Shown: in pieces, positions 333 to 47,077 of the stretch
Layout: the number at the start of each line of letters is the position of its first letter
Position numbering within the stretch: the stretch's first letter is position 1
DNA from: Pelomonas sp. Root405
GTDB taxonomy: Bacteria > Pseudomonadota > Gammaproteobacteria > Burkholderiales > Burkholderiaceae_C
DNA length: 64,000 nt
Direction of reading: 5' to 3'
NCBI RefSeq assembly: GCF_001425165.1
Contig: NZ_LMDU01000017.1
Span: 157,154 to 221,153 of the forward strand
The notes under the pieces: model-generated
Database searches by the model: none
The model's input: only the letters and a program-made list of their open reading frames with translations
Told to the model about the DNA's origin: nothing
Program-made: the position numbers and the translations under genes

Positions 333-350
333 CGCCGGGGCGCAGCGTCG

Positions 351-29778: not shown

Positions 29779-29788
29779 CCCCGCCACG

Positions 29789-31310: not shown

Positions 31311-32329
31311 AAGCGCCTCAAGCCTGCAGCGGATTCGTGCTGCCCGTGACCGTCGCCATCCTCGCGCTGATCGCGGTGGGCATAGCGATGATGGCCCAAC
31401 GCAGCGACGAATTGCGCCGGCTCGTGTTGGCCATCGAGGCAGACCGGATCGCTACCCGGCAAGTCGCGGAAGCGAGCGCCGACGCTCTTTTTCTCAGCGG
31501 CGCCCTCTACCGCCGCGGCGACAGCATGGGATCGATCAAGCTCGACGGCCGGCCCTATCTCAGCAGCTCCGGCGCCGTGGTCCGCTACACCGACGCCGGC
31601 GCGCTGCTCGGCCTGCGCCGCGCACCCCGCCAGGACATTTATCAATTGCTTGTCGCCCTTGGCCTGGCCGACCACGGCCAGATCGAAAGACTGACGGACG
31701 CGCTGCTCGACTACACTGACAAGGACGATCTGGAGCGGCTCAACGGCGCCGAGTTGCCCGATTACCTCCCCGCCAAGCTCCCGCCCCCTCGCAATGGCCG
31801 CGTGCTCACCCCGGCCGAGCTGCAGCGGCTTGTCGGTTGGCGGGACCTGCCGCAGGATTTCCTGGAACGCTTTGCCGCCAACGTCCACACCGGCCCGGTG
31901 CGCTCGGTGAACCGCTACACCGTTGTAGGTCCGGTGCTCTCCGCCATGACCGGCCTCGACCGGACCGTGGCGGACGAACTCGTGAAAGCTCGCGTGCCCG
32001 GCACCTTCCTGAACATTGACGCCCTGCCGACGCTCGCCGAAACCAGTTTCTTAGCCATGGGCCGTTACATCACCGTCCCGTCCAGTGAGGTGTTGGTCAC
32101 AATCTGCCCTTTGCGCGTCGACTGGTGCCAGCACCTGTCAGTGTCGAGCACGGGCGAGAGCGCGTTCACCCCCTGGCATGTCAACTACAGCTACCGCCAG
32201 CCGCGCCGACAACCGCTTCCCGACCCCAAACAGCTCCAAGCCCTGCCAGACCAGTTGCCCGACACGCCGCCGCCGCCGCTGTGGTCCCCCTTCAGCAACG
32301 ACCTGTCCAGCCCCCCATCTCCGCCCTGA
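31307..32329 (+). CDS. gspK: Minor pseudopilin GspK
   Basis: A 340-residue pseudopilin, the largest of the set as expected. Cleavage site is Gly9-Phe10 (CSG/FVLPV). The usual Glu at mature position 5 is missing, which is characteristic of GspK and lets it cap the pseudopilus. The helical GspK domain is seen around DALLDYTDKDDLERLNGAE, which has the typical D-x-D-D pattern. The C-terminus is Pro-rich. The ATG overlaps the gspJ stop. Confidence 0.9.
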   Translation: MKAPQACSGFVLPVTVAILALIAVGIAMMAQRSDELRRLVLAIEADRIATRQVAEASADALFLSGALYRRGDSMGSIKLDGRPYLSSSGAVVRYTDAGALLGLRRAPRQDIYQLLVALGLADHGQIERLTDALLDYTDKDDLERLNGAELPDYLPAKLPPPRNGRVLTPAELQRLVGWRDLPQDFLERFAANVHTGPVRSVNRYTVVGPVLSAMTGLDRTVADELVKARVPGTFLNIDALPTLAETSFLAMGRYITVPSSEVLVTICPLRVDWCQHLSVSSTGESAFTPWHVNYSYRQPRRQPLPDPKQLQALPDQLPDTPPPPLWSPFSNDLSSPPSPP

Positions 32330-32344: not shown

Positions 32345-33406
32345 ATGTTCAGCCGCCCCAGCTTTGTCCCCATCGAGCGCAGTGAGCTGCGCCATGTGAC
32401 GCTCAAACTTCCGCCGCTGAAGGGGCGCGCGCTGCAGTCTGCGATGCGCCTGCAGCTGCTGCCCTACGCTCCAGCCGGCGCGCGACTGGCCTTTGTCTAT
32501 CGAGAGCAGGGCGACGGTCAGACCCATGCCTGGCTGTGGCAGCCAGCTGCCGATGTCCAGGCCAGCAAACTGCGACAGCACTGGCCAGAACCCTTGCTCG
32601 AACAAGCCGGCCAGGGACCGCGCCTGCTGGCTCGCGGCGCGGGCAGCGAAGCGCAGTACTGGGTCGACGGTGAACTTCGACTGACCCGCTGGTGGCCCTC
32701 CTTGCCCACAGCGCAGGACTGGGCCCTCTTCGTGCGTGCCGCCGGCCTGCAACCCGACGATCACCCGCTTCCGCAGCGTAGCGCGCCTGCCAAGCTCGGC
32801 GCTCCCTCTCAGCAATGGCTGCGCGGCGACAACCTTCCCGCGGCAGACCCATGGGCCGGCTGGCGCTGGCAGGCCGCCGTCTTGCTGCTGGGCGGCCTGA
32901 TCGCCTTCGGCATTGGCGCGCACCTGCAGACCTTGCACCAGTTGCGCGACGATCAGGCATTGCTCAAGCAACTGCGCAGCGAGCGGGAGCAGGCCCTGGG
33001 CCAGCGCAGCCGTTACCTGTCGCTGCGCGACGACTTCGATGCACTTCGCGCACTCGCTCCACGCAGTTCGCAGCTCGAGCTGCTGGACAAGGTGGTCGCC
33101 AGCGGCATCCTCGCCGCGCCACCTGGCGTGCCGCCAGTAGCGGCGTCCGCCCCGCCAGCCACGCCGGGGGCCATTACCGCCCCCCCAACCAATGCCGCGG
33201 TCGCCGCGCCGGTCGCCCCCAGCCTGGCCGAATGGGACTACCGCAACAGCCAGCTCAAGCTCACGCTCGACATCCCCGAGGGCCAGCTCGTCATGCTTGA
33301 CATCACCCGGCGCATCGAACGGCTGCAAGGCTTCAGCGACGTGCGCATCGGCCTCGACTCATCCAACACCAGCCTAATCCTGAACATGCGTGTCGTCGGC
33401 CCATGA
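32345..33406 (+). CDS. gspL: Type II secretion protein GspL
   Basis: Inner-membrane protein of 353 residues that couples the GspE ATPase to the membrane platform. A cytoplasmic part (about 1-175) precedes one transmembrane helix near 178-196 (AAVLLLGGLIAFGIGA), then a coiled segment and a periplasmic ferredoxin-like domain after a Pro/Ala linker (about 255-295). It is shorter than many GspL proteins. Assigned mainly by position between gspK and gspM and by topology. Confidence 0.83.
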   Translation: MFSRPSFVPIERSELRHVTLKLPPLKGRALQSAMRLQLLPYAPAGARLAFVYREQGDGQTHAWLWQPAADVQASKLRQHWPEPLLEQAGQGPRLLARGAGSEAQYWVDGELRLTRWWPSLPTAQDWALFVRAAGLQPDDHPLPQRSAPAKLGAPSQQWLRGDNLPAADPWAGWRWQAAVLLLGGLIAFGIGAHLQTLHQLRDDQALLKQLRSEREQALGQRSRYLSLRDDFDALRALAPRSSQLELLDKVVASGILAAPPGVPPVAASAPPATPGAITAPPTNAAVAAPVAPSLAEWDYRNSQLKLTLDIPEGQLVMLDITRRIERLQGFSDVRIGLDSSNTSLILNMRVVGP

Positions 33407-34098
33407 GCACGCTCGCCACTCAACTTTTGTCCCAGTGGCGGCAGCTGCGCGCCCAACTGCGGCCCTCGCCCCAGAACCGCACGCTGTGGCTTCTGATCGG
33501 CCTCGGCCTGCTCGCCGCAGGTGGCGAGCTGGGCATGCGGGCCTGGGAGTACCAGCAGAAGCTCGACCGGGAACTTGCCGCTCAGCGCAAGCGGGTCCAG
33601 GCCTTGCAGATCTCGGCCGACCGCGTCGACTGGGTGCAGTTGAGCGACCAGCTCGGCACCGCGCAGCAGACGCTGCAGAAACAGCTTTGGCACGCGCCCT
33701 CCGAAGCGCAGGCCCAGGCCATGCTCCGAGATTGGCTAAGCAGCATGCTGAAGGAGGCGGACATTGCCCGCCCCACCCTGCGCCTGCAGCCCGTACAGCC
33801 TGCCACGCCGGCTCAGGCGGCTTCGGCCAGCGAGCCCGCCGAAACCACGACACCGTCTGGCCTGGGTGCTCGGCTGGCCCGCGAGGCCGTGCGTGCGCGT
33901 GCGCAGATCAGCTTCGAACTCGCGCCCGGCACGCTGGAAACCGTGCTGCAGCGCATCGAGCGCGGTGGCCAGCTCGCCAGCGTCGACGCGTTGTCGGTCT
34001 CCAAGCGCAGCCGCCGCGTCGAGATGAGCGTCTCCATACCCGTCATCATTGAAGCTTTGCCTGCGGACAACGCCGTCGCCAAGCCTGCCACCCGATGA
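33403..34098 (+). CDS. gspM: Type II secretion protein GspM-like
   Basis: A 231-residue bitopic protein with one transmembrane helix near residues 28-45 (TLWLLIGLGLLAAGGELG), a coiled segment, a Pro/Ala linker and a small periplasmic domain. GspM partners GspL in the inner-membrane platform. Sequence conservation in this family is low, so the call depends on topology and gene order. ATG overlaps the gspL stop by four bases. Confidence 0.8.
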   Translation: MSTLATQLLSQWRQLRAQLRPSPQNRTLWLLIGLGLLAAGGELGMRAWEYQQKLDRELAAQRKRVQALQISADRVDWVQLSDQLGTAQQTLQKQLWHAPSEAQAQAMLRDWLSSMLKEADIARPTLRLQPVQPATPAQAASASEPAETTTPSGLGARLAREAVRARAQISFELAPGTLETVLQRIERGGQLASVDALSVSKRSRRVEMSVSIPVIIEALPADNAVAKPATR

Positions 34099-34580
34099 AC
34101 GCCTTGCTCACCCATCCGCTCGCCCGCCTCGCTGCGGCATGGATCGCCTGGGCAGGCCTGGCCGCGCTGGGCTGGTGGTGGCACCAGCCTGCACCGCTGC
34201 CCGGGCCGGCAGCGGCTGCCGCGCAGCCGCCCGCGCCGCCCGCAATCCGCGGCACGGCCGATCTGTCGCGCGACCCGTTGGCCTCCCGCCTTCAGGCGCT
34301 TGACCCTTTCGCACTGAAGCGGACCGCCGCAGCCCCGACACCTGGCACCGCTACGACGGCGGGCGCAGGTGGCGACGACATAGTCTGGCGCTTCGCCGCC
34401 CTGACCGAAAACCGCGGCCAACGCCAGCTGGTGATGACCGCCAATGAGCATCCCCCGCTGCTGTTGAAGGCCGGGGACAAGCTGCCCAACGGCGAACGCA
34501 TCAAATCCATCGGCGCTACCGGCGTCCTGCTGCAGGACGCCAAAGGCCGAAAGCGCACCATTCAGTTGATCGAGCCATGA
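34095..34580 (+). CDS. Short GspC/XpsN-like protein
   Basis: A 161-residue protein with an N-terminal transmembrane helix (about 11-30, AAWIAWAGLAALGWWW), an Ala/Pro linker and a small beta-rich domain near 95-160 (VWRFAALTENRGQRQLVM, LLKAGDKLPNGERIKSIGATGVLL). The last part resembles the homology region of GspC and the PilP fold that contacts the secretin. No PDZ domain follows, so it is shorter than classical GspC. The position just before gspD matches XpsN of Xanthomonas. It likely links the inner platform with the secretin. Confidence 0.7.
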   Translation: MNALLTHPLARLAAAWIAWAGLAALGWWWHQPAPLPGPAAAAAQPPAPPAIRGTADLSRDPLASRLQALDPFALKRTAAAPTPGTATTAGAGGDDIVWRFAALTENRGQRQLVMTANEHPPLLLKAGDKLPNGERIKSIGATGVLLQDAKGRKRTIQLIEP

Positions 34581-37024
34581 CCAAGCCCGCCCCATCCACG
34601 CCTCACCTGTTGCCCCGCCGCCTGATCGCCACGGCCGCGGCCGCCTCGGTGGCGACACTGCTCGCCGGCTGCCAGCATCTGACGTCCCCCATCCTTCCAG
34701 ATCGTCGTGCCGAATCGGCGGAGCCCTTGCCCATCCGGGGTGCGCCCGCAGGAGCGCCTGCTTCCGCCGCGGGCGCAGAGCAGGCCGGCAACGTCCGCCT
34801 TTTCCAGACCCCCGCAGCCCAACCCGGCGGGCGCAGTGCCACGCGCGCAAACCCTGCGCGCAGCAATCCTGCCGAGCCCGATATCGAAGCTTCGGTCGCG
34901 CTGGAACAACTGCCACTGCCCGTCTTCATCGACACCGTCTACGCCACCATCCTCAAGCGCAACGTTTCGGTCGACCCGGCTATCGCCACGCGCAAGGAAC
35001 TGGTCTCGCTCAAGTCGGGCAAGACGTTGTCCGCAACGGCGCTGGCCGAGGCCGCGCGGGCGGTGCTCAAGAGCTACGGCATAGCCGTTACTGAGTTCGA
35101 CAACCTTGTGCGGGTTACACCCGCGGGCGGCAACGCCGGCTACCTGCCCGAACTGCAACGTGGCCGCGCGTCTGCCGACGTGCCGCAATCGCTGCGCCCG
35201 GTGTTCTACATGGCCGAACTGGAAAGCGTCAGCCCCAGCAACGTGAGCAGCTGGCTCAAAACGTTGTTCGGGCAGCGCGTCAACGTGCAGGACGACTTGG
35301 CTCGCCAAGCCGTCTTGCTCAGCGGCCAGACCGATGACGTGAACGCGGCCCTAGAGGCCATTCAGGTGCTGGACCAGCCCCTGATGCGGGGCCGCACGAG
35401 CGCCCGCATCGCGCCCCTGTACTGGTCGGCCGACGAACTCTCGAAGAAGCTGACCGATGTTCTTCAGGCCCAGGGTTACAGCGTCGGCAACAGCGGCACC
35501 GCGCAGGCCCCGGTCATCCTGTTGCCCATCGGCCCATTGAATTCCGTCATCGTCTACGCCACGTCAGACAACGTGCTCAACCACGTGCTGCGCTGGGCCA
35601 CGGAACTCGACCAGCCCGCCAGCGGCCGTGGCTCGGCCGGCTATTTCACCTATCCCGTACGCAACATGGATGCGGGCGAACTGGCCAAGACGCTGCAGGA
35701 GGTCATGAATCCTGCTGCTGCCCCCGGCCCGAACAGCACCGCGGTCAAGTCCCGCGTGGTCGTCAATGCGGCCAGCAACACCCTCATCATTCAAGGCAGT
35801 CCCACCGAGTACCAGCAATGGTTCGGCCTCTTGCAGGAACTGGACCGCCCCGCCCGAACCGCGCTTGTTTCTGTCACAGTCGCTGAAGTCGCGCTGGACG
35901 ACACCGAGACCCTGGGTTTCAAATGGATTCTTGACCAGTTCCGTATCGGTGGATTCAACGTCAATCTGAGCAGCCTCACCAGCACCGGCAGTAGCGCGGG
36001 CATGGTGGCGCAAATCACCAGCCGCACCAGCAGCACCAACGCGCTGTTGAACGCGCTCGCCGTCGCCAGCAAGGCCCGCATCCTCGCCAACCCCAGCATC
36101 CTGGCTCGAAATGGAGAGACCGCGTCCATCCAAGTCGGACAGGACGTGCCAATCATCACCCAGCAGCAGCAGGCCACCAATGGCTCCGGCGTGCCTGGTG
36201 GCGGCTCGTCGGCCAATGTGCTGCAGACCATTCAGTACCGCAACGCCGGCGTCATCCTCAACGTCAAGCCCGTCATTCACGCGGGTGGCCGTATCGACCT
36301 CGACGTGAGCCAGGAGGTCTCTGCAGTCGTGGCCACCGACCTTGGTGTTCAAACAACCCCCACCTTTTCCAGCCGCAAACTCACGACCAAGCTCTCTGTG
36401 GCAGACGGCACAACCGTGCTGCTCGGCGGACTCATGCGCATGGACAACACCGTATCCAACAGCGGCATTCCCATGTTGAAGGACATCCCCGTGGTCGGCC
36501 ATCTCTTCAAGAGCAGCACCGACAAGCGCGTCCGCACGGAACTCGTCGTGCTCGTGACGCCGTACGTCATCAACGACGAATTCGAGGCGCGTGCCATCAC
36601 TGACGCATTCCGCCGGCAGTTCAGCTGGGACAACAGCACGCCTTTGCAACAGTTGCGCCCACCGTTGGTCGACCCCGTCACTCGCCCGCCCGCGGCGATT
36701 CGTCCCGGCGATGCCAACGTCGGCAAGCCTTATGAGCTACCGCCCGTCGAAGCCGAGAAGCCCTCGAGACCAAGTGCAGCCGCCTCCGGCGTTGGCACGC
36801 AACAACAATCCGCTCAGGACTTTCCCCTGGGTACAGCCACCCGACCGGCCGGAGTCCTCGACTCTTCCGCTAACGTTCGCTCCCAAGCCGGCGCTCCTGC
36901 GACGCCAGCCTCTGATCCCCAGCCCCGCCGGGCCGGTGACAAGCCGAATTCGGGTGCAGGGAAGCCTGTAGAAGACCCACAGCTACTGAAGGAGCTCATG
37001 GATGCCGTGAACCGCAAGCGATGA
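34577..37024 (+). CDS. gspD: Type II secretion secretin GspD, predicted lipoprotein
   Basis: Outer-membrane channel subunit, 815 residues. The N-terminus is a lipoprotein signal: basic start, hydrophobic stretch and lipobox Leu-Ala-Gly-Cys32, with Gln after the Cys (no inner-membrane retention Asp). Periplasmic N domains follow, then the secretin core from about residue 430 to 680 with VPIITQQQQ and TVLLGGLMRMDN. The last 120 residues are Pro/Ser-rich and low in order. A lipidated secretin like XpsD or HxcQ may reach the outer membrane without a separate pilotin, and no pilotin gene is seen. It ends the F-to-D operon. Confidence 0.95.
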   Translation: MTKPAPSTPHLLPRRLIATAAAASVATLLAGCQHLTSPILPDRRAESAEPLPIRGAPAGAPASAAGAEQAGNVRLFQTPAAQPGGRSATRANPARSNPAEPDIEASVALEQLPLPVFIDTVYATILKRNVSVDPAIATRKELVSLKSGKTLSATALAEAARAVLKSYGIAVTEFDNLVRVTPAGGNAGYLPELQRGRASADVPQSLRPVFYMAELESVSPSNVSSWLKTLFGQRVNVQDDLARQAVLLSGQTDDVNAALEAIQVLDQPLMRGRTSARIAPLYWSADELSKKLTDVLQAQGYSVGNSGTAQAPVILLPIGPLNSVIVYATSDNVLNHVLRWATELDQPASGRGSAGYFTYPVRNMDAGELAKTLQEVMNPAAAPGPNSTAVKSRVVVNAASNTLIIQGSPTEYQQWFGLLQELDRPARTALVSVTVAEVALDDTETLGFKWILDQFRIGGFNVNLSSLTSTGSSAGMVAQITSRTSSTNALLNALAVASKARILANPSILARNGETASIQVGQDVPIITQQQQATNGSGVPGGGSSANVLQTIQYRNAGVILNVKPVIHAGGRIDLDVSQEVSAVVATDLGVQTTPTFSSRKLTTKLSVADGTTVLLGGLMRMDNTVSNSGIPMLKDIPVVGHLFKSSTDKRVRTELVVLVTPYVINDEFEARAITDAFRRQFSWDNSTPLQQLRPPLVDPVTRPPAAIRPGDANVGKPYELPPVEAEKPSRPSAAASGVGTQQQSAQDFPLGTATRPAGVLDSSANVRSQAGAPATPASDPQPRRAGDKPNSGAGKPVEDPQLLKELMDAVNRKR

Positions 37025-37157
37025 CCACCAACCCTGCGGTGCCTCGGTTGTGTCTCACACAGACGTAAAGACCGCAACCATCCCTTCAGGGGTTGAATAA
37101 ACCCCTCAGACAAACCCGATACTTTCAACAAAACGAGCATTGCATAACGTTTCGCCA
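37025..37157. other. Intergenic region after gspD with a 7-bp inverted repeat
   Basis: Between gspD and the surface-protein promoter there is a perfect hairpin AGGGGTT-GAATA-AACCCCT at 37088-37106, 64 bases after the gspD stop. No T tract follows, so it is not a typical terminator; it could stabilise the 3' end of the gsp mRNA or be a protein site. Nothing else is evident. Confidence 0.4.
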
Positions 37158-37185
37158 TTGCCGCCCCCTGGGCAGTGGGTATACT
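37158..37185 (+). promoter_or_regulatory. Sigma70-type promoter of the surface-protein gene
   Basis: TTGCCG (37158-37163), 16-base spacer, TATACT (37180-37185). The -10 has five of six consensus bases and the -35 four of six, the best pair seen in the window. The predicted start near 37192 gives a leader of about 105 nt. The leader holds an 8-base repeat GTCCGGCA (twice within 37226-37247) and a small hairpin GTTGA-GGTG-TCAAC at 37253-37266. Confidence 0.6.
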
Positions 37186-37297
37186 GCTCGGTAGCTGTCA
37201 CATCAACCAACGGTGCAGCGGTGTGTCCGGCAAACCTAGGTCCGGCATGCTTGTTGAGGTGTCAACTTCAATCGTTCTCTTGATCGAGGAAATTTCA

Positions 37298-39001
37298 ATG
37301 AAACAAAAGCTTCTTTCTGCACTGGTCGTGGCCGCTGTCGCTGGCATGGCTGTCAATGCCAACGCTGGCGTGATCCAGTCTTCTTACAAGAACTACGCCG
37401 CTGAAGTCTTCGGCGACAACACCGTTGTTCTGACCGCTCCGACGATCGGTTACGCGCTGGCTCTGCCGCTGACCGGCACGCAAGCCAACCCCAACAGCTT
37501 CACCATCAGCTGGACGCTGTCCGGTGGCGCTACTTGGAACGCTGCACCCGCTGCCGCCACGATCGTGCTGGCCCAACCTGATGGCACGGTGCCCGTCGCT
37601 GGCCCCACGACCTATCAAGTCGCCGCTCCCACGCTGAGCGCTGACAAGACGACGCTGACCGCCGTCATCACCGTGTCCTCGAACTTCACCACCGGTTCGC
37701 AAGTCGTTCTGGGCGGTGGCGGTGCCGTGCAAGTCACCAAGGTTGGTACCACACTGGGTGCTCCCGCCCTGTCGACCGACGGTTGCAGCGATGCAGTCGC
37801 CTCGGTCAACGTGACGGCCAAGCTGACGAACGCTGCTGGCACCGAATTCGATTCGAACTTCACGCTGGCTCCGCTGCTGAACACGACCCCCATCGTGCAG
37901 TCGCGTCGCGCGCTCGAAGTGCTGGCCCTGAGCTCGTCTGCCTTCCCGCGCACGACCCTCGGCGCCGTGGACACCGACATCGAGCAATCGAGGGTCGATG
38001 TGCTGCAGCCTTCCGGCGGCAAGCTGTTCCTGAACAACCCGGTGGATATCACGAACAGCACCACCGTGCTGAACCTGGGCCAGGTCATCGTGCGTGACCG
38101 TTCCGTTCTGTTCGACCTGAACGGCACGAACGCGTACAGCGTGGGCACCGCCGCCTTCGGCACGAACCCGGCCAGCGCCGTCGGTATCGTCGAAGCCAAT
38201 GGCATCACCTTCAAGGTCTCCGGCAAGTTCGCTACCGGTGCCACGGTGACCGTTGCGCGTAACTCGATTGCCGCCACTGGCGAGACGGTTGTGGGTGCTG
38301 CCATCGCGTCCACGACCACGTTCAATGCAGACCGCACGGAAGCCACCGTCACGGTCGCTGCCGGCGACCTGACCGATGCCAACTTCACGCAAGACGGCAA
38401 CGGCGCCACGGCGACTGCTCGCCGCCTGAACGTGCTGTACACCGTGCCTGGCACCTCGGCGGTTCCGGTTACTCAGTTCAAGCTGGTCAGCGGTCAGCTG
38501 AACAAGTTTGCCTCGTCGCTGGAAGCACCGAACGTTGCCTGCCCGGGTAACCTGTACAACCTGATCGCCAATGGCGTGCAAGTTGACGTGCGCAACTACG
38601 TGCCGGACGTCGCTGCGGCTCCGTCGGGTGGCTGGAAGAGCATCGTCCGTATCATCAACACGGACGAATCGCAAACGGCTGACGTGAACGCTACGGTTCT
38701 GCATCGCAATGGCGACCTGGGCGCTTCGGCTCTCCTGGTGACCCTGAAGCCGCGTGAAGTGGTGTACCTGCAAAGCGCTCAGATCGACGCCAAGCTGAAT
38801 GCTGCCGCTACCGCGACCGCCACCAGCTTCGGTGCTGATGACATTGGCCAGAACGCTCGCCTGCGTCTGACCGCTGCCAACTCGTCGATCCGCGTCCAGA
38901 ACTACCTGTTCAACCCGGCCAACGGCAACTTCATCGAAGGTTCGTCGGCTCAGGGCGACGAAGGCCCGGCGCTGGCAGTTCGCGATTCCGTGAACAAGTA
39001 A
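37298..39001 (+). CDS. Abundant exported protein, candidate S-layer/surface protein and type II cargo
   Basis: A 567-residue protein of no family I can name. It starts with a clear Sec signal peptide (MKQKLLSALVVAAVAGMAVNANA, cut before GVIQSS), preceded by Shine-Dalgarno GAGGA seven bases before the ATG. The mature part is rich in Ala, Thr, Val, Asn and Gly and low in charge, with many short alternating hydrophobic/Thr runs that suggest beta structure, and only two Cys. Codon use is richer in GCT, GGT, GTT and CGT than in its neighbours, a mark of strong expression. With its own strong promoter, long leader and strong terminator it looks like a major secreted or surface protein. It lies between gspD and gspE, which suggests it is cargo of this secretion system. 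No PEP-CTERM or other sorting tail is seen. Confidence 0.75.
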   Translation: MKQKLLSALVVAAVAGMAVNANAGVIQSSYKNYAAEVFGDNTVVLTAPTIGYALALPLTGTQANPNSFTISWTLSGGATWNAAPAAATIVLAQPDGTVPVAGPTTYQVAAPTLSADKTTLTAVITVSSNFTTGSQVVLGGGGAVQVTKVGTTLGAPALSTDGCSDAVASVNVTAKLTNAAGTEFDSNFTLAPLLNTTPIVQSRRALEVLALSSSAFPRTTLGAVDTDIEQSRVDVLQPSGGKLFLNNPVDITNSTTVLNLGQVIVRDRSVLFDLNGTNAYSVGTAAFGTNPASAVGIVEANGITFKVSGKFATGATVTVARNSIAATGETVVGAAIASTTTFNADRTEATVTVAAGDLTDANFTQDGNGATATARRLNVLYTVPGTSAVPVTQFKLVSGQLNKFASSLEAPNVACPGNLYNLIANGVQVDVRNYVPDVAAAPSGGWKSIVRIINTDESQTADVNATVLHRNGDLGASALLVTLKPREVVYLQSAQIDAKLNAAATATATSFGADDIGQNARLRLTAANSSIRVQNYLFNPANGNFIEGSSAQGDEGPALAVRDSVNK

Positions 39002-39014
39002 TCTCTTCGGAGAT
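39001..39014 (+). repeat. Small UUCG hairpin at the stop codon
   Basis: ATCTC-TTCG-GAGAT, a perfect 5-bp stem with a stable UUCG-type loop, starts on the last base of the stop codon. With the terminator 11 bases later it makes two tandem tetraloop hairpins, which could protect the 3' end of the mRNA. Confidence 0.55.
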
Positions 39015-39025
39015 TGCACCTAAAG

Positions 39026-39054
39026 CGGAGGGCTTCGGCCCTCCGTTTTTTTTT
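39026..39054 (+). terminator. Strong Rho-independent terminator of the surface-protein gene
   Basis: CGGAGGGC-TTCG-GCCCTCCG, a perfect 8-bp GC-rich stem with a UUCG loop, followed by nine T residues. It is the clearest terminator in the window and lies 24 bases after the stop codon. Confidence 0.96.
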
Positions 39055-39158
39055 GCCGACGCTGTATTGGCGACAACTGCGGCAGCTCTATATGTTTGCT
39101 TGAAGCGCCCCAGGGCATACCGCGCGGTAGCAGCGCCGCGGAGACGCTGGCCGAGCCT

Positions 39159-40106
39159 TTACTGGATCAGAAGATCCGTGAATCGGCCGTCCACACCCAG
39201 CCGCTTCCACACGGCGTCAAAAGCGGCCTCAGAAACCGGTACTGCGCCTCCATCCAGCTCAAGGTCGTGGAAGCGCGTGTAGCCCGCCTGCAAGACAGCT
39301 TGCTTCAGTGCGTCATACGAGCCGTTGCGCTGCATGCCGTACGGCCAGAATTCGACGACCAGCGGCGGTCTGCTCTCCAGACTGCGGGCGGCGCCCTGCA
39401 GCACAAAGCCCTCGAAGCCTTGCGTGTCCATCCAGATCAAGCAGCCCTGCAGGTCACCGTTGATCTGGCTGTCCAGGCTTTCGCAACGCACCACGGTGCG
39501 TTCGCGTCGCGCTTCACTGAACCGACCGTCCAGCGTGCCAAAGCTAACGCGATGATCACCGAAGTTGTCCTCCGACAGCTCAAACAGAAGTTGCTCGCCA
39601 TCCCGTGCTCCCAATGCCATATTGCGCGCCTCGACGCGGGACGCCAGTCCATTGAGATGGATATTTGCCGTCAGTAACGAGAAATTGAAGGCCTCGGGTT
39701 CGAAGGCAAGGGCTCTTTCGAACAGCCCACGCTTCACCGCGGCGATGCAGATGCAGCCAATGTTGGCCCCGATATCCAGCAGCAGTGCGGGCCGGAATGT
39801 CGGCCCCAACAAATGCATGACCTTCTCGAATTTTTCGAAATCAAACTGCCCCTTGACATACAGCTCACGGGCAATGGCCCGGTCCGCCGACGACACCAGA
39901 TAGGTCTCCTGGCCCCGTTGGCTAACCAGCACGGCGCCGGCAGGAGCCGCGTCGAATACCGCCATGCGCCAGGATGCGCTGCGCTGCAAGCCTGCCCAGT
40001 GCAGCGCACGCGCCAGCGCTGTGGCCACCTCGCGCAAGCCTTTGCGCAGCAAGCGCTGCCGTGGGGCGGAAGAAGTGGAAGCAGAGGAACTGGGAGCGGA
40101 AGACAT
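39159..40106 (-). CDS. FkbM-family SAM-dependent methyltransferase (second of two)
   Basis: A 315-residue protein with an N-terminal part of about 90 residues, then the FkbM core: LLLDIGANIGCICIAAVKRG, AFEPEAFNFSLL, DNFGDHR, and the late IWMDTQGFEGFVLQGA. It differs clearly from the FkbM protein at 22895 and is not a duplicate. It stands alone on the minus strand between the surface-protein gene and gspE, with its own -10 element. It may methylate a surface glycan or a modification on the secreted protein. ATG at 40106 is preferred to a TTG 20 codons upstream. Confidence 0.85.
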   Translation of the reverse strand: MSSAPSSSASTSSAPRQRLLRKGLREVATALARALHWAGLQRSASWRMAVFDAAPAGAVLVSQRGQETYLVSSADRAIARELYVKGQFDFEKFEKVMHLLGPTFRPALLLDIGANIGCICIAAVKRGLFERALAFEPEAFNFSLLTANIHLNGLASRVEARNMALGARDGEQLLFELSEDNFGDHRVSFGTLDGRFSEARRERTVVRCESLDSQINGDLQGCLIWMDTQGFEGFVLQGAARSLESRPPLVVEFWPYGMQRNGSYDALKQAVLQAGYTRFHDLELDGGAVPVSEAAFDAVWKRLGVDGRFTDLLIQ

Positions 40107-40141
40107 GCAATGGGTGGCGCGGGTGCGCGAAGCAACGCGCG

Positions 40142-40147
40142 ATTCTA
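40142..40147 (-). promoter_or_regulatory. Putative -10 element for the FkbM gene
   Basis: TAGAAT followed by CGCGCG on the minus strand, 36 bases before the ATG. It matches the TAGAAT-plus-GC-rich pattern seen at several other starts in the window. No strong -35 is evident. Confidence 0.35.
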
Positions 40148-40190
40148 GGAAACGGCCAGCCGGCAACCGAAGTCCATTCGTGCCCCCGCC

Positions 40191-40196
40191 TATGAT
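40191..40196 (+). promoter_or_regulatory. Putative -10 element for gspE
   Basis: TATGAT followed by CCGGGCC on the plus strand, 34 bases before the gspE ATG. The -35 region (around 40168-40174) is weak. Together with the minus-strand element it makes a divergent promoter pair in the 123-base gap. Confidence 0.35.
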
Positions 40197-40229
40197 CCGG
40201 GCCGCGACGTCCCATCTTCTTCGGTATCC

Positions 40230-41918
40230 ATGCGCCTCGGTGAACTCCTGATTGAACGCAACTTGCTTGATGCAGCAGCCCTTGGGCAGGCGCTGCAGCA
40301 GCAGGCAGGCAACGCAGCCGGCCAGCGACTGGGTGCGATTCTGGTGCGCATGGGACTTGTCTCGGAGCCAAGCCTCTACGGGGCTTTGTCACACCAGCTC
40401 GGGCTGCCGCTGTGGGATGCCAAAGAGCAGCCGGAGTGGCTGGAGCAGGCGTTGACGCCAGCAGCCGCCGCGTCCCAGTTGCCCGCCGCGCTGTCGCGGC
40501 GCTGGAGCGCCTTCACGGTACCCGCCGATGGCTCGCTTCTGCTGATTGCGCGCGACCCGCTGCTGCCCGAATTGCAGGAATTTGCGCAAGGCTTGGCCGG
40601 CTTACGCCCCTTGCACCCATGGCTGGCGCAGAGCGCCGATATGGCCCGTGCCTTGGCCAAGATTCATGATCACGCAGCACCGGCGGCAGTCGCGTCCAAC
40701 GATCTGCGCCAGCTCGCTCAGGATGCACCTATTGTCGAGTTCGTCGCGACGATGCTGTCGCGGGGCACGGATCAGCACGCGTCCGACATCCACATCGAAC
40801 CCGCCGAGGGGGTCTTCCATGTGCGCTACCGCGTGGACGGCCAACTGCGTTCCACGGAGAGCCATGCACGCGAGCGCTTCGATGCAGTGGTGAGCCGCAT
40901 CAAGCTGGTGAGCGGACTGGACATCGCCGAGCGCCGACTGCCTCAGGACGGCCGCTTCTCGACAAGGGCTGCAGGCATCGAGACCGAGGTGCGGGTGTCG
41001 GTTATTCCGTCCGTCCATGGCGAATCGGTGGTCATGCGCCTTCTGCCAAAGACCGCCCATCGGCGCTTCCGTCTGGACGTGCTTGGCTTCGAGCCTGACC
41101 ACCTGGCGGCCCTGCAGGCTTCGCTCGCAGAGCCGGACGGCATCATCTTGGTGACCGGCCCGACTGGCTCCGGCAAGAGCACGACGCTGTACGCCGCGTT
41201 GGCTGCGACGGATACCGCCACGACCCGGGTACTGACGGTGGAAGACCCGGTGGAGTACCAATTGCCGGGCATTACCCAGTTTCAGGTGCAGTCAGATATC
41301 GGCTTCACCTTCCCGGCGGCCCTGCGCTCCATCCTGCGGCACGACCCAGACACGGTGATGATCGGTGAGATCCGCGACCCTGAAACGGCCAGCATTGCCA
41401 TCCAGGCGTCTTTGACGGGCCACAAGGTGCTTTCGACGCTCCATACCAATGATGCGCCGTCGGCCTTCGTGCGCTTGATCGACATCGGCGTGGAACCGTT
41501 CCTGTTGGCGGCCAGCGTACGCACCGTGATTGCACAGCGGCTTATTCGCCGACTTTGCCCACATTGCGCGACACCCGTGGCTCGAGAGACGCTGCCTGCC
41601 AGCGTACGCAAGCACGCCGAGACGCTCGGACTGGCTGCCTCCGATTACGCCGGTCGTGAGCCCCAGGGCTGCCCCGAGTGCGACAACACCGGTTATCGAG
41701 GTCGCACAGCCGTGCACGAGGTTCTGGCCGTGACGCCGGGGCTCCGCGCTGCGCTGTCGGGTGGGCGCATTTCCGATCACGAGGTGCGGCAGCACGCGCA
41801 GCCGGGTTTTCGCAATCTCTCGCAGGATGCGCTGATACGATTCTGGCGCGGCCTGACAAGCGTTGCCGAGGTGATAGCACTGGCCAGCAGCCAGGCTGAA
41901 CTCCGCGAACCGATCTGA
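40230..41918 (+). CDS. gspE: Type II secretion ATPase GspE
   Basis: Cytoplasmic hexameric ATPase that powers pseudopilus assembly, 562 residues. An N-terminal domain (about 1-150) binds GspL. The core has the Asp box region (ASDIHIEP), Walker A GPTGSGKST at 310-318, Walker B VMIGE at 376-380 and the His box THLHTND-like segment STLHTND. The tetra-Cys zinc motif is complete: Cys443, Cys446, Cys481, Cys484. It is the only gspE in the window and complements the F-to-D operon 3.2 kb upstream, from which it is separated by the surface-protein and FkbM genes. PilB or other ATPases share the fold, but the CxxC pair and context favour GspE. Confidence 0.93.
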   Translation: MRLGELLIERNLLDAAALGQALQQQAGNAAGQRLGAILVRMGLVSEPSLYGALSHQLGLPLWDAKEQPEWLEQALTPAAAASQLPAALSRRWSAFTVPADGSLLLIARDPLLPELQEFAQGLAGLRPLHPWLAQSADMARALAKIHDHAAPAAVASNDLRQLAQDAPIVEFVATMLSRGTDQHASDIHIEPAEGVFHVRYRVDGQLRSTESHARERFDAVVSRIKLVSGLDIAERRLPQDGRFSTRAAGIETEVRVSVIPSVHGESVVMRLLPKTAHRRFRLDVLGFEPDHLAALQASLAEPDGIILVTGPTGSGKSTTLYAALAATDTATTRVLTVEDPVEYQLPGITQFQVQSDIGFTFPAALRSILRHDPDTVMIGEIRDPETASIAIQASLTGHKVLSTLHTNDAPSAFVRLIDIGVEPFLLAASVRTVIAQRLIRRLCPHCATPVARETLPASVRKHAETLGLAASDYAGREPQGCPECDNTGYRGRTAVHEVLAVTPGLRAALSGGRISDHEVRQHAQPGFRNLSQDALIRFWRGLTSVAEVIALASSQAELREPI

Positions 41919-41961: not shown

Positions 41962-42714
41962 ATGTATCGCCATCTCTTTCTCCTGTTCATGGCCGGGCTG
42001 ACTGCCGGGTTCGCCGTTTCCACAGCTTCAGCCCAGACCACCCTGGCGCCTGTGAAGGCCGCCGCTTCTGCTCCTGCCACCGTCGAACGGCAGGAATGGG
42101 AATTGCGGCGCCAACGCTTCCTGCAGACCATCCAACTGCTCAAAGACAATGATGTGATCGCCCGCCGCGACTTTGAGCGTCAGGTGCGCGCTTTTGAGCG
42201 GCGTCCGTTCTCGCTCACGCCGTTGGAGGCGATGGATTACATCGGTGCGGTGTTTGTGCCTCAGGCCGGGGTCGAGAAGCTGCTGCCCCTGATTGCCGCG
42301 CAGGCGGCATTGGGCCTGTACGACGTTGATCGCTTCGGCAGCACATTGAGTGAGGCCCACCTGGTTCAGGTTGAGGGATTTCTGCGCCTGCCTTTGACCA
42401 TGGTCGGTCCGGAGCAAGCAGAGAAGTCCCGGGCCTTCCTACGCGACCATCCCGAGCGCGCTGCGCAGCTTGTGCGAGATGGGTTGGAACTGGCGAATGG
42501 CGAGCGCATTGGAACCGCCTACGATGCACGCTGGGTGCGCGCCTTGGGCCGTTGTGCGCCGGAAATTGCCGCCACCTGCCCTCAGCCGCGCGACCTGCCT
42601 GCAACCGAGTGGGACGACGTTTGGGCCAAGGTCAAACAGCGCGTGACGCTGTACTACCGTGTCGAGCCCAAGGGCGCTCCGGCGCCCGGCGCGCCAGCGT
42701 CAGTGCCGCGCTGA
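41962..42714 (+). CDS. Exported hypothetical protein downstream of gspE
   Basis: A 250-residue protein with a Sec signal peptide (MYRHLFLLFMAGLTAGFAVSTASA, cleavage before QTTLAP), then a mainly helical, charged mature part and a Pro/Ala tail. It contains two Cys near the C-terminus (GRCAPEIAATCPQPRD) that could pair. I do not recognise a family. It follows gspE by 43 bases on the same strand with no promoter seen, so it is probably co-transcribed and could be an accessory periplasmic factor for the secretion system. That role is only inferred from position. Confidence 0.7.
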   Translation: MYRHLFLLFMAGLTAGFAVSTASAQTTLAPVKAAASAPATVERQEWELRRQRFLQTIQLLKDNDVIARRDFERQVRAFERRPFSLTPLEAMDYIGAVFVPQAGVEKLLPLIAAQAALGLYDVDRFGSTLSEAHLVQVEGFLRLPLTMVGPEQAEKSRAFLRDHPERAAQLVRDGLELANGERIGTAYDARWVRALGRCAPEIAATCPQPRDLPATEWDDVWAKVKQRVTLYYRVEPKGAPAPGAPASVPR

Positions 42715-42718
42715 TTTT

Positions 42719-44602
42719 TCAGGGCCGCTCGGATGGGGCGTATTCAGGCAGCCACTGCTTCAAGCGCGTGCGCAATTCCGCCTCGCTCATCGGGGGCTCG
42801 GCCGCGGCGCCCTGCGCTGCTAGCCATTGCACGATGACAGCGCCTGCCGCCGCGTCGCCAGCTGCCCCCAACTGTGCAAGCCGCAATGCAGCGAACGGCG
42901 TGGCCAAGGTTCTGTCGCCGTCGGCCAGCAGTTCCTCATACAGTTTTTCCCCACGCCGCAGGCCGGTGAACTCCACGCGAATCTGATCCGAGGAATGGCC
43001 CGAGAGCCGGATCATGTCGCGCGCGAGGTCGACGATCTTGATCGGCTCGCCCATATCGAGCACGAACACTTGACCACTGTCACCGATGGCGCCAGCCTGC
43101 ACCACCAGTCGAGCCGCCTCGGGAATGGTCATGAAATAGCGCGTGACATCTGGATGGGTCACTGTAACGGGCCCCCCGCGGGCGATCTGCTCCTTGAACT
43201 TCGGGATCACGCTGCCGCTGCTGCCTAACACGTTGCCAAACCGCACGGCCATGAACTTCGTAGCGCCCTGCTTCCCAGCCATATGGCCGACGACGAGTTC
43301 TGCGGCGCGCTTGGTCGCACCCATGACGTTGGTCGGGTTGACGGCCTTGTCGGTGCTGATCAGTACAAAGCGCTCCGCTCCGCTTTCCAGAGCAGCCAGG
43401 CTGGCGTGATACGTTCCCAGCGTGTTGTTGCGCAATGCCGCCCACGCGTTCTCTTCCATCAGTGGCACATGCTTGTAGGCGGCTGCATGGAAAACGATCT
43501 GCGGACGGTACTTGCCGAAGATGAAGCGCAGCTGCTGCCGATCTTTCACGTCGCCAATTACCCGCAGCAGCGGCAGATGAGGGAATTTCTCGCTGAGCTC
43601 CTGCTCTATGGTGTAAAGCGCTAGTTCGCTCAGTTCATAGAGCACGATCTTCGATGGGCCGTAACGCGCGACCTGCCGGCACAGCTCGGAGCCAATAGAG
43701 CCGCCTGCGCCTGTAATCAGCACAACCTTGCCGTTCAGGCATTCGCTGATGCCGCCCTCATCCAGTTCCACCGGCTCCCTGCCTAGCAAGTCTTCAGGCT
43801 CGATGTCGCGGACCTGGTTGACTGCGCGGCCGGATAGCAGCTCTTCGCTGTTCGGCACCGTCAGCACCGGTAGTCCCACTTTTCCGGCCATGTCCAGCGC
43901 ATAGCGGCGCTGGGGCACGCTGGCCCCTGGCATGGCCACGATGACGTGCGTGATGCCGTGCAACGTCGCGAACTCGGCAGCCTGCGCCAGCCGACCGAGC
44001 ACGGGCACCCCGGCGACGCGAGCGCCCTGCTTCTCGGGCGCGTCGTCCAGGAAGCCGACGATCACCCAGCCCTGCGTATGCTGCAGGCCGGCCACCAGGA
44101 GCCGCCCGGCGTCTCCGGCCCCCATCACCAAGGCTCGCCGCTGCTCCAGCGCGCTGCCGCTGATGCGGCTACGCATGTGTTCGTAAAGCATGCGGTAGCC
44201 CATGCGCATCATGGCCAGCAACATCAGCGTGAAAAGCGGATGCAGGGCCAGTACCGCCCGCGGTACGCCGTAGAGCCGGGCCATCTGCACCAGCGTTGCA
44301 GCAACGAGACCAGCGCTGGCGCAGGCCAGCGCCAGACGCTTGACCTCGCCAAAGCCCGAAAAGCGCCACATGCCCTTCGGCACGCGCAGTGCCCGGAAGG
44401 CGATGGCGTAGATGAGAAGTAAGCCGAGCAAAACCGCACCGTCGTAGGCCGGGCGCGCGGCGAACCAGCGCTCGAAGCCAAGTCGAAACAGGTAGGTAGC
44501 CTGCCAAGCAACGACGACGACGGCGACGTCCAATGCGAGTGCGATTGCCTCACGGTGAGCGCGTAGGCGCGTGAGAAGGGTGTCGAGAAACTGCCAGTTC
44601 AT
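42719..44602 (-). CDS. Nucleotide-sugar 4,6-dehydratase, CapD/WbpM/PglF family
   Basis: Membrane-bound enzyme of 627 residues that makes UDP-4-keto-6-deoxy-GlcNAc (or a similar product) from UDP-GlcNAc. Four N-terminal helices (about 18-130) precede a Rossmann domain with VMGAGDAGRLL (159-169). The catalytic SDR domain has TGAGGSIG at 297-304, HAAAYKHVPLME, and the Ser-Met-Lys type active site (STDKAVNPTNVMGATK, Met427, Lys431) of this family instead of Tyr-x3-Lys. It is the last gene of the minus-strand glycan operon, after the DegT aminotransferase and the PglC-like transferase. The three form the set needed to make and load a 4-amino sugar. Confidence 0.92.
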   Translation of the reverse strand: MNWQFLDTLLTRLRAHREAIALALDVAVVVVAWQATYLFRLGFERWFAARPAYDGAVLLGLLLIYAIAFRALRVPKGMWRFSGFGEVKRLALACASAGLVAATLVQMARLYGVPRAVLALHPLFTLMLLAMMRMGYRMLYEHMRSRISGSALEQRRALVMGAGDAGRLLVAGLQHTQGWVIVGFLDDAPEKQGARVAGVPVLGRLAQAAEFATLHGITHVIVAMPGASVPQRRYALDMAGKVGLPVLTVPNSEELLSGRAVNQVRDIEPEDLLGREPVELDEGGISECLNGKVVLITGAGGSIGSELCRQVARYGPSKIVLYELSELALYTIEQELSEKFPHLPLLRVIGDVKDRQQLRFIFGKYRPQIVFHAAAYKHVPLMEENAWAALRNNTLGTYHASLAALESGAERFVLISTDKAVNPTNVMGATKRAAELVVGHMAGKQGATKFMAVRFGNVLGSSGSVIPKFKEQIARGGPVTVTHPDVTRYFMTIPEAARLVVQAGAIGDSGQVFVLDMGEPIKIVDLARDMIRLSGHSSDQIRVEFTGLRRGEKLYEELLADGDRTLATPFAALRLAQLGAAGDAAAGAVIVQWLAAQGAAAEPPMSEAELRTRLKQWLPEYAPSERP

Positions 44603-44615
44603 TGAGGCGGGATTG

Positions 44616-45215
44616 TCAGCGGTGCAGTACCCGCGCTAGCGTCGCCACGATCAAGCGCAGGTCGGTCGCCAAGTTGGCCCTCACCGCATAGTCGGCGGAG
44701 ATCCCCAACTTGGCCGGCAGCACGACCTCGCGGTACTCGCGTTCGGGGTCAGCGGCCTTGGCCAGCAGATCAGCCTCGTGCCTGAATGCAAGCGACGCCG
44801 GGTCGGTGATGCCCGGCCGCACCGACAGCACACGCTCGCGCAGGTCAGCGGGATAGAGCTCGACATAGCGTGGTAGCTCCGGCCGCGGGCCGACGAGGCT
44901 CATCGTGCCGCGCAGAACATCCCAGAGCTGGGGCAGCTCGTCGAGCTTGGTATCACGCAGCCATTGACCCGCGCGCGTGATGCGCGGGTCGGCGCCCACG
45001 GTGATGGCCGAGCCAGGCTCGGCGCGCATGGTGCGGAACTTGTGGATGGTGAAGGGCACACCAAAACGCCCCACCCGCGTCTGCCGGAATAGGACGGGGC
45101 CGGGGGAGTCGAGCTTGATCCAGGCGGCCGCCAGCAGCAGCAACGGCGCCAGCAGCAGCAGGCCCACGGCAGACGCTGCGATATCGAACAGGCGTTTGCT
45201 CAAGCCCGTACTCAA
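44616..45215 (-). CDS. PglC-like initiating sugar transferase (bacterial sugar transferase family)
   Basis: Monotopic phosphoglycosyl transferase of 199 residues that puts a sugar-1-phosphate on undecaprenyl phosphate. The N-terminal re-entrant hydrophobic helix ([25 protein letters not shown]) is followed by [16 protein letters not shown], the catalytic Asp-Glu pair in [15 protein letters not shown] and SLVGPRPEL. The short single-domain form fits PglC/WbaP-core enzymes for diNAcBac-type sugars. The start is taken as TTG at 45215, overlapping the preceding stop by four bases (TTGA), because no ATG precedes the conserved start. Confidence 0.88.
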
Positions 45216-46372
45216 ACGAACATGCCGCGCACCGAGGCGACGACGCGCTCCACATCCGCGTCGCTCATCGCCGTGTACAGCGGCAGACTGACCGTACGCT
45301 CGTAGGCCTTCTGGGAATGCGGGAACTGCTCGGGCGTCAGGCCGTACCGGTCGCGCCAGTAAGGATGCAGGTGCAGCGGCACGTAGTGCACGCTGCAGCC
45401 GATGCCGGCGGCATACATGCCTTCGATGAAGGCATCACGCGTGATGGCCGCATCGTCGGACAGACGCACGACGTAGAGATGCCAGGAATGGGTATCGCCT
45501 GCCGGAGCGTCCGGCGGCAGGATCAGCGGCAGGTCGGCGAAGGCTTCGTGGTAGCGCCTTGCGATCTGCTCGCGGCGCAGCTGAAAGCCAGGCAGGCGCT
45601 TGAGCTGGTGCAGGCCCAGGGCTGCGGCGATGTCGGTCAGGTTGTACTTGAAGCCGGGCGCGACGATCTCGTAGTACCAGCTCGGCACCTTGGCCGTGAA
45701 GCGGTCGAAAGCGTCGCGGCTCATGCCGTGCAGGCGCATGACGCGGGCACGCTTGGCGAGTTCGGCGTTGCGTGTGACCAGCATGCCGCCCTCGCCCGTC
45801 GTCATCGTCTTGTTGGCGTAGAAGCTGAAGACCGTGGCGTCGCTGCCCAGCGTGCCGATCAGCTCCTTCTCCAGCGTCGTCGGCAATGCGTGGGCTGCGT
45901 CCTCGATGACGCGCAGACCGTGGCGGCGCGCGATGTCGAGGATGGCCAGCATGTCTACGGCCAGGCCCGCGTAATGCACTGGCAGGATGGCGCGCGTCTT
46001 GGGCGTGATCGCAGCCTCGATGGCGGCGATGTCAATGTTCAGCGTGGCCGGGTCGATGTCGACCAGCTTCACGTCGGCGCCGAGGTAGCGCACCACCTCG
46101 GCCGTGGCTGTGAAGGTGTGGGTCGTCGTGATGACTTCGTCGCCCGGCGCCAGGCCGATGGCTTCCAGGGCCAGGTGCAGGCCGGCCGTCGCCGAGTTGA
46201 CGGCGATGCATTCGATCTGGGGGTCGCCGAGGAAGTCGGCGAAGGCCTGCTCGAAGCGCTTGGCCTTGGGACCGGTCGTGATCCAGCCGGATTTGAGCGT
46301 GTCGACGACCTCGGCAATCTCGTCGTCACCAAGATCAGGCAGGGCAAAGGGGAGGAAAGGAAGATCGGTCAT
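45212..46372 (-). CDS. DegT/DnrJ/EryC1 sugar aminotransferase (PglE-like)
   Basis: PLP enzyme of 386 residues that aminates a keto sugar nucleotide. Features are [37 protein letters not shown] and the PLP lysine Lys188 in [14 protein letters not shown]. Flanked by a PglC-like transferase and a PglF-like dehydratase it probably converts UDP-4-keto-6-deoxy-GlcNAc to the 4-amino sugar. It is not closely similar to the second DegT protein at 51.8-53.0 kb, which has SFFPSKPLG at the lysine. Its ATG overlaps the vapC stop by four bases. Confidence 0.88.
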
Positions 46373-46803
46373 GAAGCCAGCGTGACGAGGTGTTCGGGCC
46401 GGGCGCCGGGCACGGCATGCAAAGGGATACCGCGGTCGAAGGTGACCAACCGCAACCCGTGCCGCACCGCGAGCGCGAGCAGGTAGGCATCGGTGATCTG
46501 GCGGGAGCCGGTGATATGGCTCCAGTTGAGCACGCCCTGGTCAAGCAGGCTGAAATCGTCAGCGTAGAAGCGGTGCATCTCGTGCGCGGTGGCCTCAGCC
46601 AAGCGCTCGCGCACGGCGTTGGGCGTTTGCGCGTTGGGATGTCCGGGGCGGCTCAAGATGCGCAGGCAGCCGTTTTGCGTCAGCGGGCAGGAGGCCCAGC
46701 CACCGTCCCAGTGCGCGCCGAGCCATTGCATGGCAGCGGCATGGTGAACATGCGCTTGATCTTGCAACGCGAGAAGGACATTGACATCGAGAAGAGCCCG
46801 CAT
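46369..46803 (-). CDS. vapC: VapC-type PIN-domain toxin
   Basis: Predicted ribonuclease toxin of 144 residues. The PIN acidic residues are Asp6 ([10 protein letters not shown]), Asp105 ([10 protein letters not shown]) and Asp123 (TFDRG). At the site where many PIN proteins carry Glu, the sequence reads TQNGCLRIL, as in the TQ-type subgroup. It follows vapB with a one-base overlap, and its own stop overlaps the aminotransferase ATG by four bases. A toxin gene translationally coupled to a glycan gene is unusual. The antitoxin should keep it inactive. Confidence 0.88.
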
Positions 46804-47045
46804 CAGGTGCCTTCCTCGTCGCGAAGCTTGTTCAAGATGTCGTTGGTGACCACCACGCCGGCCTTGGCGGCGAAGGGGCGGAAGCCCGGCACCGCATAGC
46901 CAGCCGCCGGCTCGGCCACGACTTGGCCCGTCAGCGCCTGACGCAGCAGCCGCGACACCACAGCGCCCGCCGTGGTGCCCTCATGGCGAGCCAGCTCCTT
47001 GGAAGCAGCCAACAGGTCATCATCAATGTCGATCGTGGTCCGCAT
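46803..47045 (-). CDS. vapB: VapB-type antitoxin, ribbon-helix-helix
   Basis: Eighty-residue protein starting MRTTIDIDDDLLAASKELA, the ribbon-helix-helix pattern of DNA-binding antitoxins, with a C-terminal part that would wrap the PIN toxin. Its stop overlaps the vapC ATG (TGATG). It is 32 bases after the methyltransferase gene and may autoregulate an internal promoter in that gap, though no clear promoter is visible. Confidence 0.87.
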   Translation of the reverse strand: MRTTIDIDDDLLAASKELARHEGTTAGAVVSRLLRQALTGQVVAEPAAGYAVPGFRPFAAKAGVVVTNDILNKLRDEEGT

Positions 47046-47077
47046 GACAAATCATCAGATGCAGTGATGCACAGATG

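Follow-up and report, generated by a model that had tools for sequence, protein, structure and literature searches.

A probable S-layer-type surface protein and its linked type II secretion system in Pelomonas sp. Root405

S-layer proteins of Aeromonas attach to lipopolysaccharide (LPS), and the export and regulation of Gram-negative S-layers are mostly open matters. Among the closest described systems is that of NpdA (WP_011797163, DELCS14_RS25720) from Delftia and Paracidovorax, an S-layer and nanopod protein identified as an S-layer component by gene disruption, proteomics, and microscopy (PMC3110197, PMC10765051). Its gene adjoins a gsp cluster, which in P. citrulli is gsp1 of a genome with a second gsp cluster; orthologs have been reported across Beta- and Gammaproteobacteria, and the authors ask that the need for the linked type II secretion system (T2SS) be put to the test (PMC10765051). 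Reassembly of extracted NpdA required LPS (PMC3110197). Slr4 of Pseudoalteromonas tunicata (EAR28894), an S-layer protein whose gene is likewise linked to gsp genes, doubles as a major component of the biofilm matrix (PMC7821379). The gsp-linked S-layer arrangement is already described, and the protein considered here, encoded at 37298-39001 of a 64,000-nucleotide stretch of Pelomonas sp. Root405 (contig NZ_LMDU01000017.1; the whole stretch is called the window), would belong to this known kind. It is probably an abundant surface protein of the S-layer type, served by a dedicated T2SS whose genes surround its own, because its linkage to gsp genes is conserved (47 of 51 loci) and the linked exporter forms a separate lineage (Shimodaira-Hasegawa approximate likelihood ratio test, SH-aLRT, 100).

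The protein and its conserved linkage to gsp genes

Within a T2SS cluster that is itself embedded in a glycan locus, the gene comes after gspD and before gspE (Table 1), and Pfam matches on either side of it, together with glycan-gene matches on both flanks of the cluster, confirm the placement given in a preliminary description made from the sequence alone. GTG and ATG starts also occur upstream in frame; the start at 37298 is preferred because its N-terminal MKQKLL is kept in the nearest relatives. As had been described, the product is rich in Thr, Val, and Ala and low in charge and Cys (87 Ala, 65 Thr, 62 Val, 2 Cys, and 71 Asp+Glu+Lys+Arg among 567 residues), and its mature part has a mass of 55.4 kDa and an isoelectric point of 4.9. 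No family match was found in Pfam or NCBIfam, nor in a profile search of the PDB sequence set, in keeping with the earlier statement that no family is recognised. The gene is present in single copy, being the sole match in its own 5.8-Mb genome. A structure model predicts a beta-rich chain of immunoglobulin (Ig)-like domains.

High expression of the gene is suggested by its biased codons, because at a third-position GC content (GC3) of 0.769 the gene uses an effective number of 33.0 codons, versus 40.5 for gspD and 41.6 for gspE. This places it 14.7 below the GC3 expectation, with gspD 6.1 and gspE 7.1 below; among the 19 entries for which such residuals were computed, one 195-aa open reading frame (ORF) of odd composition was lower still (17.7 below). 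The highly expressed look noted previously is borne out by these values, and the promoter, long leader, and strong terminator of that account were also recovered. One promoter-like site was found upstream of the gene against 0.3 expected in shuffled sequence, and terminator-like sites as a class were without enrichment (3 found, 4.2 expected).

Homologues were found beside type II genes, rather than usually away from them as in the preliminary description's own counter-case. With the window counted, and with nine duplicate loci of the same contigs, short or partial GspD and GspE sequences, and L116 dropped before counting, the DNA fetched for 51 distinct loci contains gsp genes in 47 cases. 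For relatives of the window protein, here called family A, the tally is 29 of 31 loci, the exceptions being L037, on a 4.7-kb contig, and L074, where the gene sits at a contig edge (L074 was included in this tally and excluded from alignments A3 and A4); at L026, gspF and gspG alone were seen. For a second family, B, it is 18 of 20. Three main arrangements occur: gspF...gspD-protein-gspE, as in the window; gspF...gspD divergent from protein-gspE; and B-gspG...gspD-gspE-gspF. A relative from another order (L153) has its gene between gspD and gspE, with another ORF before gspE and with gspF and gspG after it, and in an extra relative (L154) the gene comes after gspD.

Two protein families on one exporter lineage

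Seven other species of the genus carry a GspD that is 44-49% identical to that of the window over about 660-770 of 815 residues, and in five of the seven a secreted Thr/Ala/Val-rich protein of about 470 aa, the family-B protein, is encoded directly upstream of gspG. Family B was found in at least 15 of 399 genomes of the same bacterial family, none of them among the 16 with family A; such whole-genome profile counts are lower bounds, a few first-look candidates having been scored per genome. Five genera have family A in some species and family B in others. Profiles of A (30 rows) and B (20 rows), compared without a shuffled control, align over 406 columns at 17% identity (probability 97.6, E 3.9e-12), and because of this match the two probably form one superfamily. 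What is new here is that two protein families, never found in one genome among the 399, share this T2SS lineage.

A combined A and B profile reached at least 31 of the 399 genomes (the 16 with A, 14 of the 15 with B, and G084) and, across 369 class-wide genomes, at least two, namely that of the window and one from another order. Superfamily members come from Betaproteobacteria, apart from a single genome in a different order of the same class. A single-protein search was positive in at least 13 of 299 genomes, and the family-A profile found 2 of 20 genomes of the genus. A scan of named genomes gave 24 family-A loci, including those of Undibacterium, Pelomonas, Ramlibacter, Rhodoferax, Mitsuaria, Piscinibacter, Sulfuritalea, and Comamonas composti; no locus from Delftia or Paracidovorax was found in the same scan, and tblastn of two members of each family against a plasmid collection gave no match. 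The N-terminus is conserved in family A, as is a C-terminal region marked by the motifs DVRN and RVQxY.

Several further ORFs resemble these families. In G164, one of the genomes with family A, a lipoprotein-like ORF (L155:9608-10687, minus strand) partially matches the family-A profile, and no gsp genes were found in the surrounding 20 kb. A 1689-aa ORF (L116:3224-8290, plus strand) shows several partial C-terminal matches to the family-B profile, with no gsp genes on its 10-kb contig. At L076, an ORF resembling a reverse transcriptase of group II intron type, as judged by eye (154-891, plus strand), lies directly upstream of gspG, the position of the family-B gene elsewhere; no family-B gene was found in that genome, whose contig begins at this gspG-upstream region. 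Three family-B copies occur in genome G206 (L107, L108, and L109), one of them linked to gsp genes, and they are possibly a stock of alternative coats.

In the sets compared, the linked exporter is a T2SS lineage separate from the general T2SS, which the window's genome also possesses. Linked proteins split from general ones with SH-aLRT 100 in trees of GspE (40 linked rows), GspF (32 linked rows), and GspD. The general rows came from ten chosen among the 20 genomes of the genus, joined in the GspE and GspF trees by E. coli K-12 for a total of 11. The canonical GspE model TIGR02533 (cut-off 630 bits) is passed by the general GspE of the same genome (684.3 bits) and by that of E. coli (656.8 bits); the window GspE fails it at 498.7 bits, as the window GspD does TIGR02517 (309.1 bits, cut-off 351).

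Protein type is paired with exporter type. In the GspE and GspD trees, four labels for protein type and arrangement need three changes, the minimum, with the rows labelled B including L076 and, in the GspE and GspF trees that contain E. coli and in the domain count below, L081; no B gene was seen at either locus. Distances among the proteins correlate with those among their GspDs at r 0.74 in A (25 loci), 0.72 in B (17 loci), and 0.65 over all 42, values reached in none of 2000 permutations in each case; the correlation was rejected as proof of interaction, as joint descent gives the same result. Within the genus, GspD of the linked type is present in 9 of 20 genomes, and an A or B protein was found in seven of these nine versus none of the other 11 (Fisher p 0.0005, the genomes being kin).

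The linked ATPase also carries a distinctive domain. Residues 2-56 of the window GspE (N-terminus, at about 40230-40400) match the MshE-type domain that binds cyclic di-GMP (c-di-GMP), with 49.7 bits for NF053729 against a cut-off of 38. At E 1e-5, this domain occurs in 29 of 39 linked GspEs, among them the 32.9-bit match of L030, which is below the cut-off, versus none of ten general GspEs of the genus; the E. coli GspE has no NF053729 match either. By set, it is present in 11 of 12 of the A-collinear type together with the relative from another order, and in all 18 of the B type. The published MshEN motif, RLGxx(L/V/I)(L/V/I)xxG(L/V/I)(L/V/I)xxxxLxxxLxxQ, is 24 residues long and occurs twice in tandem (PMC5013675). 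The second copy in the window GspE fits this pattern in full. MshEN domains on T2SS ATPases are already known (PMC5013675); a literature search found, in the accessible parts of its papers, no link of a c-di-GMP domain to S-layer export, and one paper mentions c-di-GMP apart from such export. The new hint offered by this locus is that the motor of the linked exporter may be switched by c-di-GMP.

Proposed export and competing explanations

If the protein is indeed a coat component, it would be made with a Sec-type leader and cross the inner membrane, and would then pass the outer membrane through the dedicated T2SS formed by gspF to gspM, the secretin GspD, and the ATPase GspE. Outside, it would assemble into a coat held, by analogy with NpdA, by LPS or another surface glycan from the flanking genes. 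The promoter-like site and terminator of its own, like its biased codons, suggest that it would be made in larger amounts than its exporter, and export is perhaps tuned by c-di-GMP through the linked GspE, because this ATPase has an MshE-type domain.

Another explanation, unlikely but deserving the most attention, is that the same machine secretes an adhesin or biofilm-matrix protein that acts as single molecules or fibres and forms no lattice. The structure model bears a weak likeness to domains of streptococcal surface adhesins and pilins, the sizes and sequences found in the family differ widely, and the matrix role of Slr4 (PMC7821379) lends the idea further substance. Strong codon bias, however, together with a promoter-like site and a terminator of the gene's own, fits a major coat, and the published gsp-linked proteins of this kind, NpdA and Slr4, form S-layers. 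It is considerably less probable that the gene is a mere neighbour, with a product that leaves through the general T2SS or in some other way and a linked T2SS that handles other substrates. A general T2SS is indeed at hand in this genome, and joint descent of a linked block would by itself bring the trees into agreement, but the linkage is kept across three main arrangements, two protein families, and into another order, and no protein was found in the 11 genomes of the genus that lack the linked-type GspD. A periplasmic protein or secretion-machine part, secretin-associated or a pseudopilus accessory, is hardly credible despite a position between gspD and gspE like that of a machine part, given the identity of just about 17% between A and B in the profile alignment, a promoter-like site and a terminator that belong to the gene itself, and codons far more biased than those of gspD and gspE.

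A number of observations weigh against an S-layer-type protein with a dedicated exporter, perhaps tuned by c-di-GMP. The fold scores of the structure model would fit an adhesin too, and family A was shown by profile in only 16 of the 399 genomes, a lower bound. The extra family-B copies L108 and L109 are not gsp-linked (their genome also has a linked copy), and at L042, L044, and L072 the nearest gsp gene was found 3 to 7 kb away. Two of the nine genus genomes with linked-type GspD yielded no A or B protein, namely G408, whose contig starts directly before gspG, and G412, which is 83% complete and fragmented. In the GspF tree, five labels need five changes, one above the minimum, and the A-collinear type is not a single clade in the GspD and GspF trees. 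None of nine A-divergent GspEs matched NF053729, and c-di-GMP control as a property of all linked exporters was rejected on this ground; Undibacterium aquatile, an environmental carrier of family A, likewise has the divergent arrangement and lacks the domain. Finally, a dehydratase or sugar transferase like the window's was found at 7 of 31 family-A loci (window counted), so such a glycan setting is not the rule in family A; a window-like dehydratase gene is present at 12 of 18 linked family-B loci.

It is tempting to go further and suggest that the distinct T2SS lineage is a c-di-GMP-gated exporter devoted to S-layer proteins, in which the coat protein is an exchangeable cassette, A or B according to species within one genus, each with a matching exporter; this is a conjecture that we would sooner doubt than adopt. 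Were it true, the signal that governs biofilm life would also let cells turn coat export on and off, and coats would be exchanged between lineages in the manner of O-antigens. A single genus is shown to carry two families of probable coat proteins, each in different species, and with the sequence profiles such proteins can be recognised, along with the exporter, in genomes not yet studied. Since the MshE-type domain separates many linked GspEs from the general ones, c-di-GMP control of export is open to direct test through a defined ATPase domain.

The gene cluster and its likeness to known systems

From about 28.1 to 34.6 kb the window carries gspF through gspM, followed by a gspC/N-like gene, and secretin, ATPase, platform protein, and pseudopilins all lie in one cluster, as a T2SS has them. 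Gsp profiles were grown from the window ORFs, those for D, E, F, G, I, J, and K being checked against annotated E. coli K-12 genes; the names of gspH, L, M, and C rest on gene order or weak matches, and gspH was omitted from the profiles. Between the protein gene and gspE, on the opposite strand, lies an FkbM-type methyltransferase gene on which the preliminary description was silent. Among the loci searched, this position is common to L022/L063 (one contig) only, and the gene was rejected as a member of the core unit. An ORF within the glycan locus (46369-46803, minus strand) resembles, by eye, a PIN-domain toxin of the VapC type.

Table 1. Features of the window, with family-B loci in the last row
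Feature	Position	Strand	Basis or remark
Upstream glycan genes	18853..28097	+	Pfam: asparagine synthase-like, glycosyltransferases, FkbM, flippase-like, UDP-GlcNAc 2-epimerase
gspF	28094..29317	+	exact start uncertain; profile from ORF matches annotated E. coli K-12 gspF, E 1.6e-67
gspG, major pseudopilin	29320..29778	+	profile matches E. coli gspG, E 3.4e-33
gspH-like pseudopilin	29606..30226	+	start uncertain, downstream of 29606; pseudopilin-like N-terminus by eye and gene order
gspI	30223..30663	+	profile matches E. coli gspI, E 1.3e-7
gspJ	30660..31310	+	profile matches E. coli gspJ, E 8.3e-7
gspK	31307..32329	+	profile matches E. coli gspK, E 1.5e-19
gspL-like	32345..33406	+	gene order; no Pfam/NCBIfam match; profile did not reach E. 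coli gspL
gspM-like	33403..34098	+	NF040576 GspM E 8.5e-5, below cut-off
gspC/N-like short periplasmic component	34095..34580	+	gene order; no Pfam/NCBIfam match above cut-off
gspD, secretin of linked T2SS	34577..37024	+	815 aa; PF00263 E 6.4e-47; TIGR02517 below cut-off; tree
Sigma-70-like promoter, TTGCCG-16-TATACT	37158..37185	+	consensus match; leader of about 105 nt to start codon
Candidate S-layer-type protein gene, family A	37298..39001	+	567 aa; Sec-type signal peptide at about residues 1-23, judged by eye
Intrinsic terminator	39022..39049	+	12-pair stem, then T run
FkbM-type methyltransferase	39162..40106	-	TIGR01444 above cut-off
gspE, T2SS ATPase with N-terminal MshE-type domain	40230..41918	+	PF00437 E 1e-120; NF053729; trees
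250-aa protein after gspE	41962..42714	+	no family above cut-off; also in L022/L063, L061, L062 (window-type loci)
Downstream glycan genes	42719..50048	-	Pfam: nucleotide-sugar dehydratase, sugar transferase, aminotransferase, glycosyltransferase
Family-B loci L075, L077, L078, L079, L080, L102-L115	upstream of gspG		same T2SS lineage as family A

Set beside the published systems, the preliminary description's proposal of a new S-layer or matrix protein with its own exporter holds in one part and loses ground in the other. A dedicated exporter is well supported by linkage, separate lineage, and the matching of types, whereas a wholly new kind of protein is made less likely because gsp-linked S-layer proteins (NpdA, Slr4, and VapA) have been published; the idea that the protein is new since no library knows it was likewise rejected, as NpdA and Slr4 exist. 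MshE and PA14_29490, ATPases of the MshEN type, share with the window GspE two tandem 24-residue motifs at the N-terminus (PMC5013675), from which its first motif differs in having Asn for the conserved Gly and a spacer of 7 instead of 5 residues. Aeromonas VapA and AhsA, likened here by description, are similar in that the S-layer gene adjoins a T2SS considered dedicated (cited in PMC10765051 and PMC7821379), but they belong to other hosts. Slr4 resembles the window protein more fully, as an S-layer protein of about 59 kDa without known domains, with a Sec signal peptide and a gene directly downstream of a T2SS operon; it differs in its host, a marine gammaproteobacterium, and in having been threaded on the beta-helical RsaA in place of the Ig-like chain of the window model (PMC7821379).

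NpdA, again likened by description, shares with the window protein the lack of known domains, an N-terminal signal peptide (by eye in the window), and a gene adjoining a gsp cluster. Its mature mass of 52.4 kDa in P. citrulli and a predicted mass of about 61 kDa in Delftia stand on either side of the 55.4 kDa of the window protein. The layouts differ, in that 12 gsp genes lie upstream of npdA and the window gene splits its cluster between gspD and gspE (PMC10765051). The accessible NpdA ortholog tables do not include the family-A genera Undibacterium, Ramlibacter, Rhodoferax, Pelomonas, Mitsuaria, Piscinibacter, and Sulfuritalea; of the eight named genera Comamonas alone is included, with other species, and four of the others have no mention in the accessible text of the paper. 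The published list may be limited by its BLAST search, and the superfamily of families A and B is, by analogy, probably that of NpdA.

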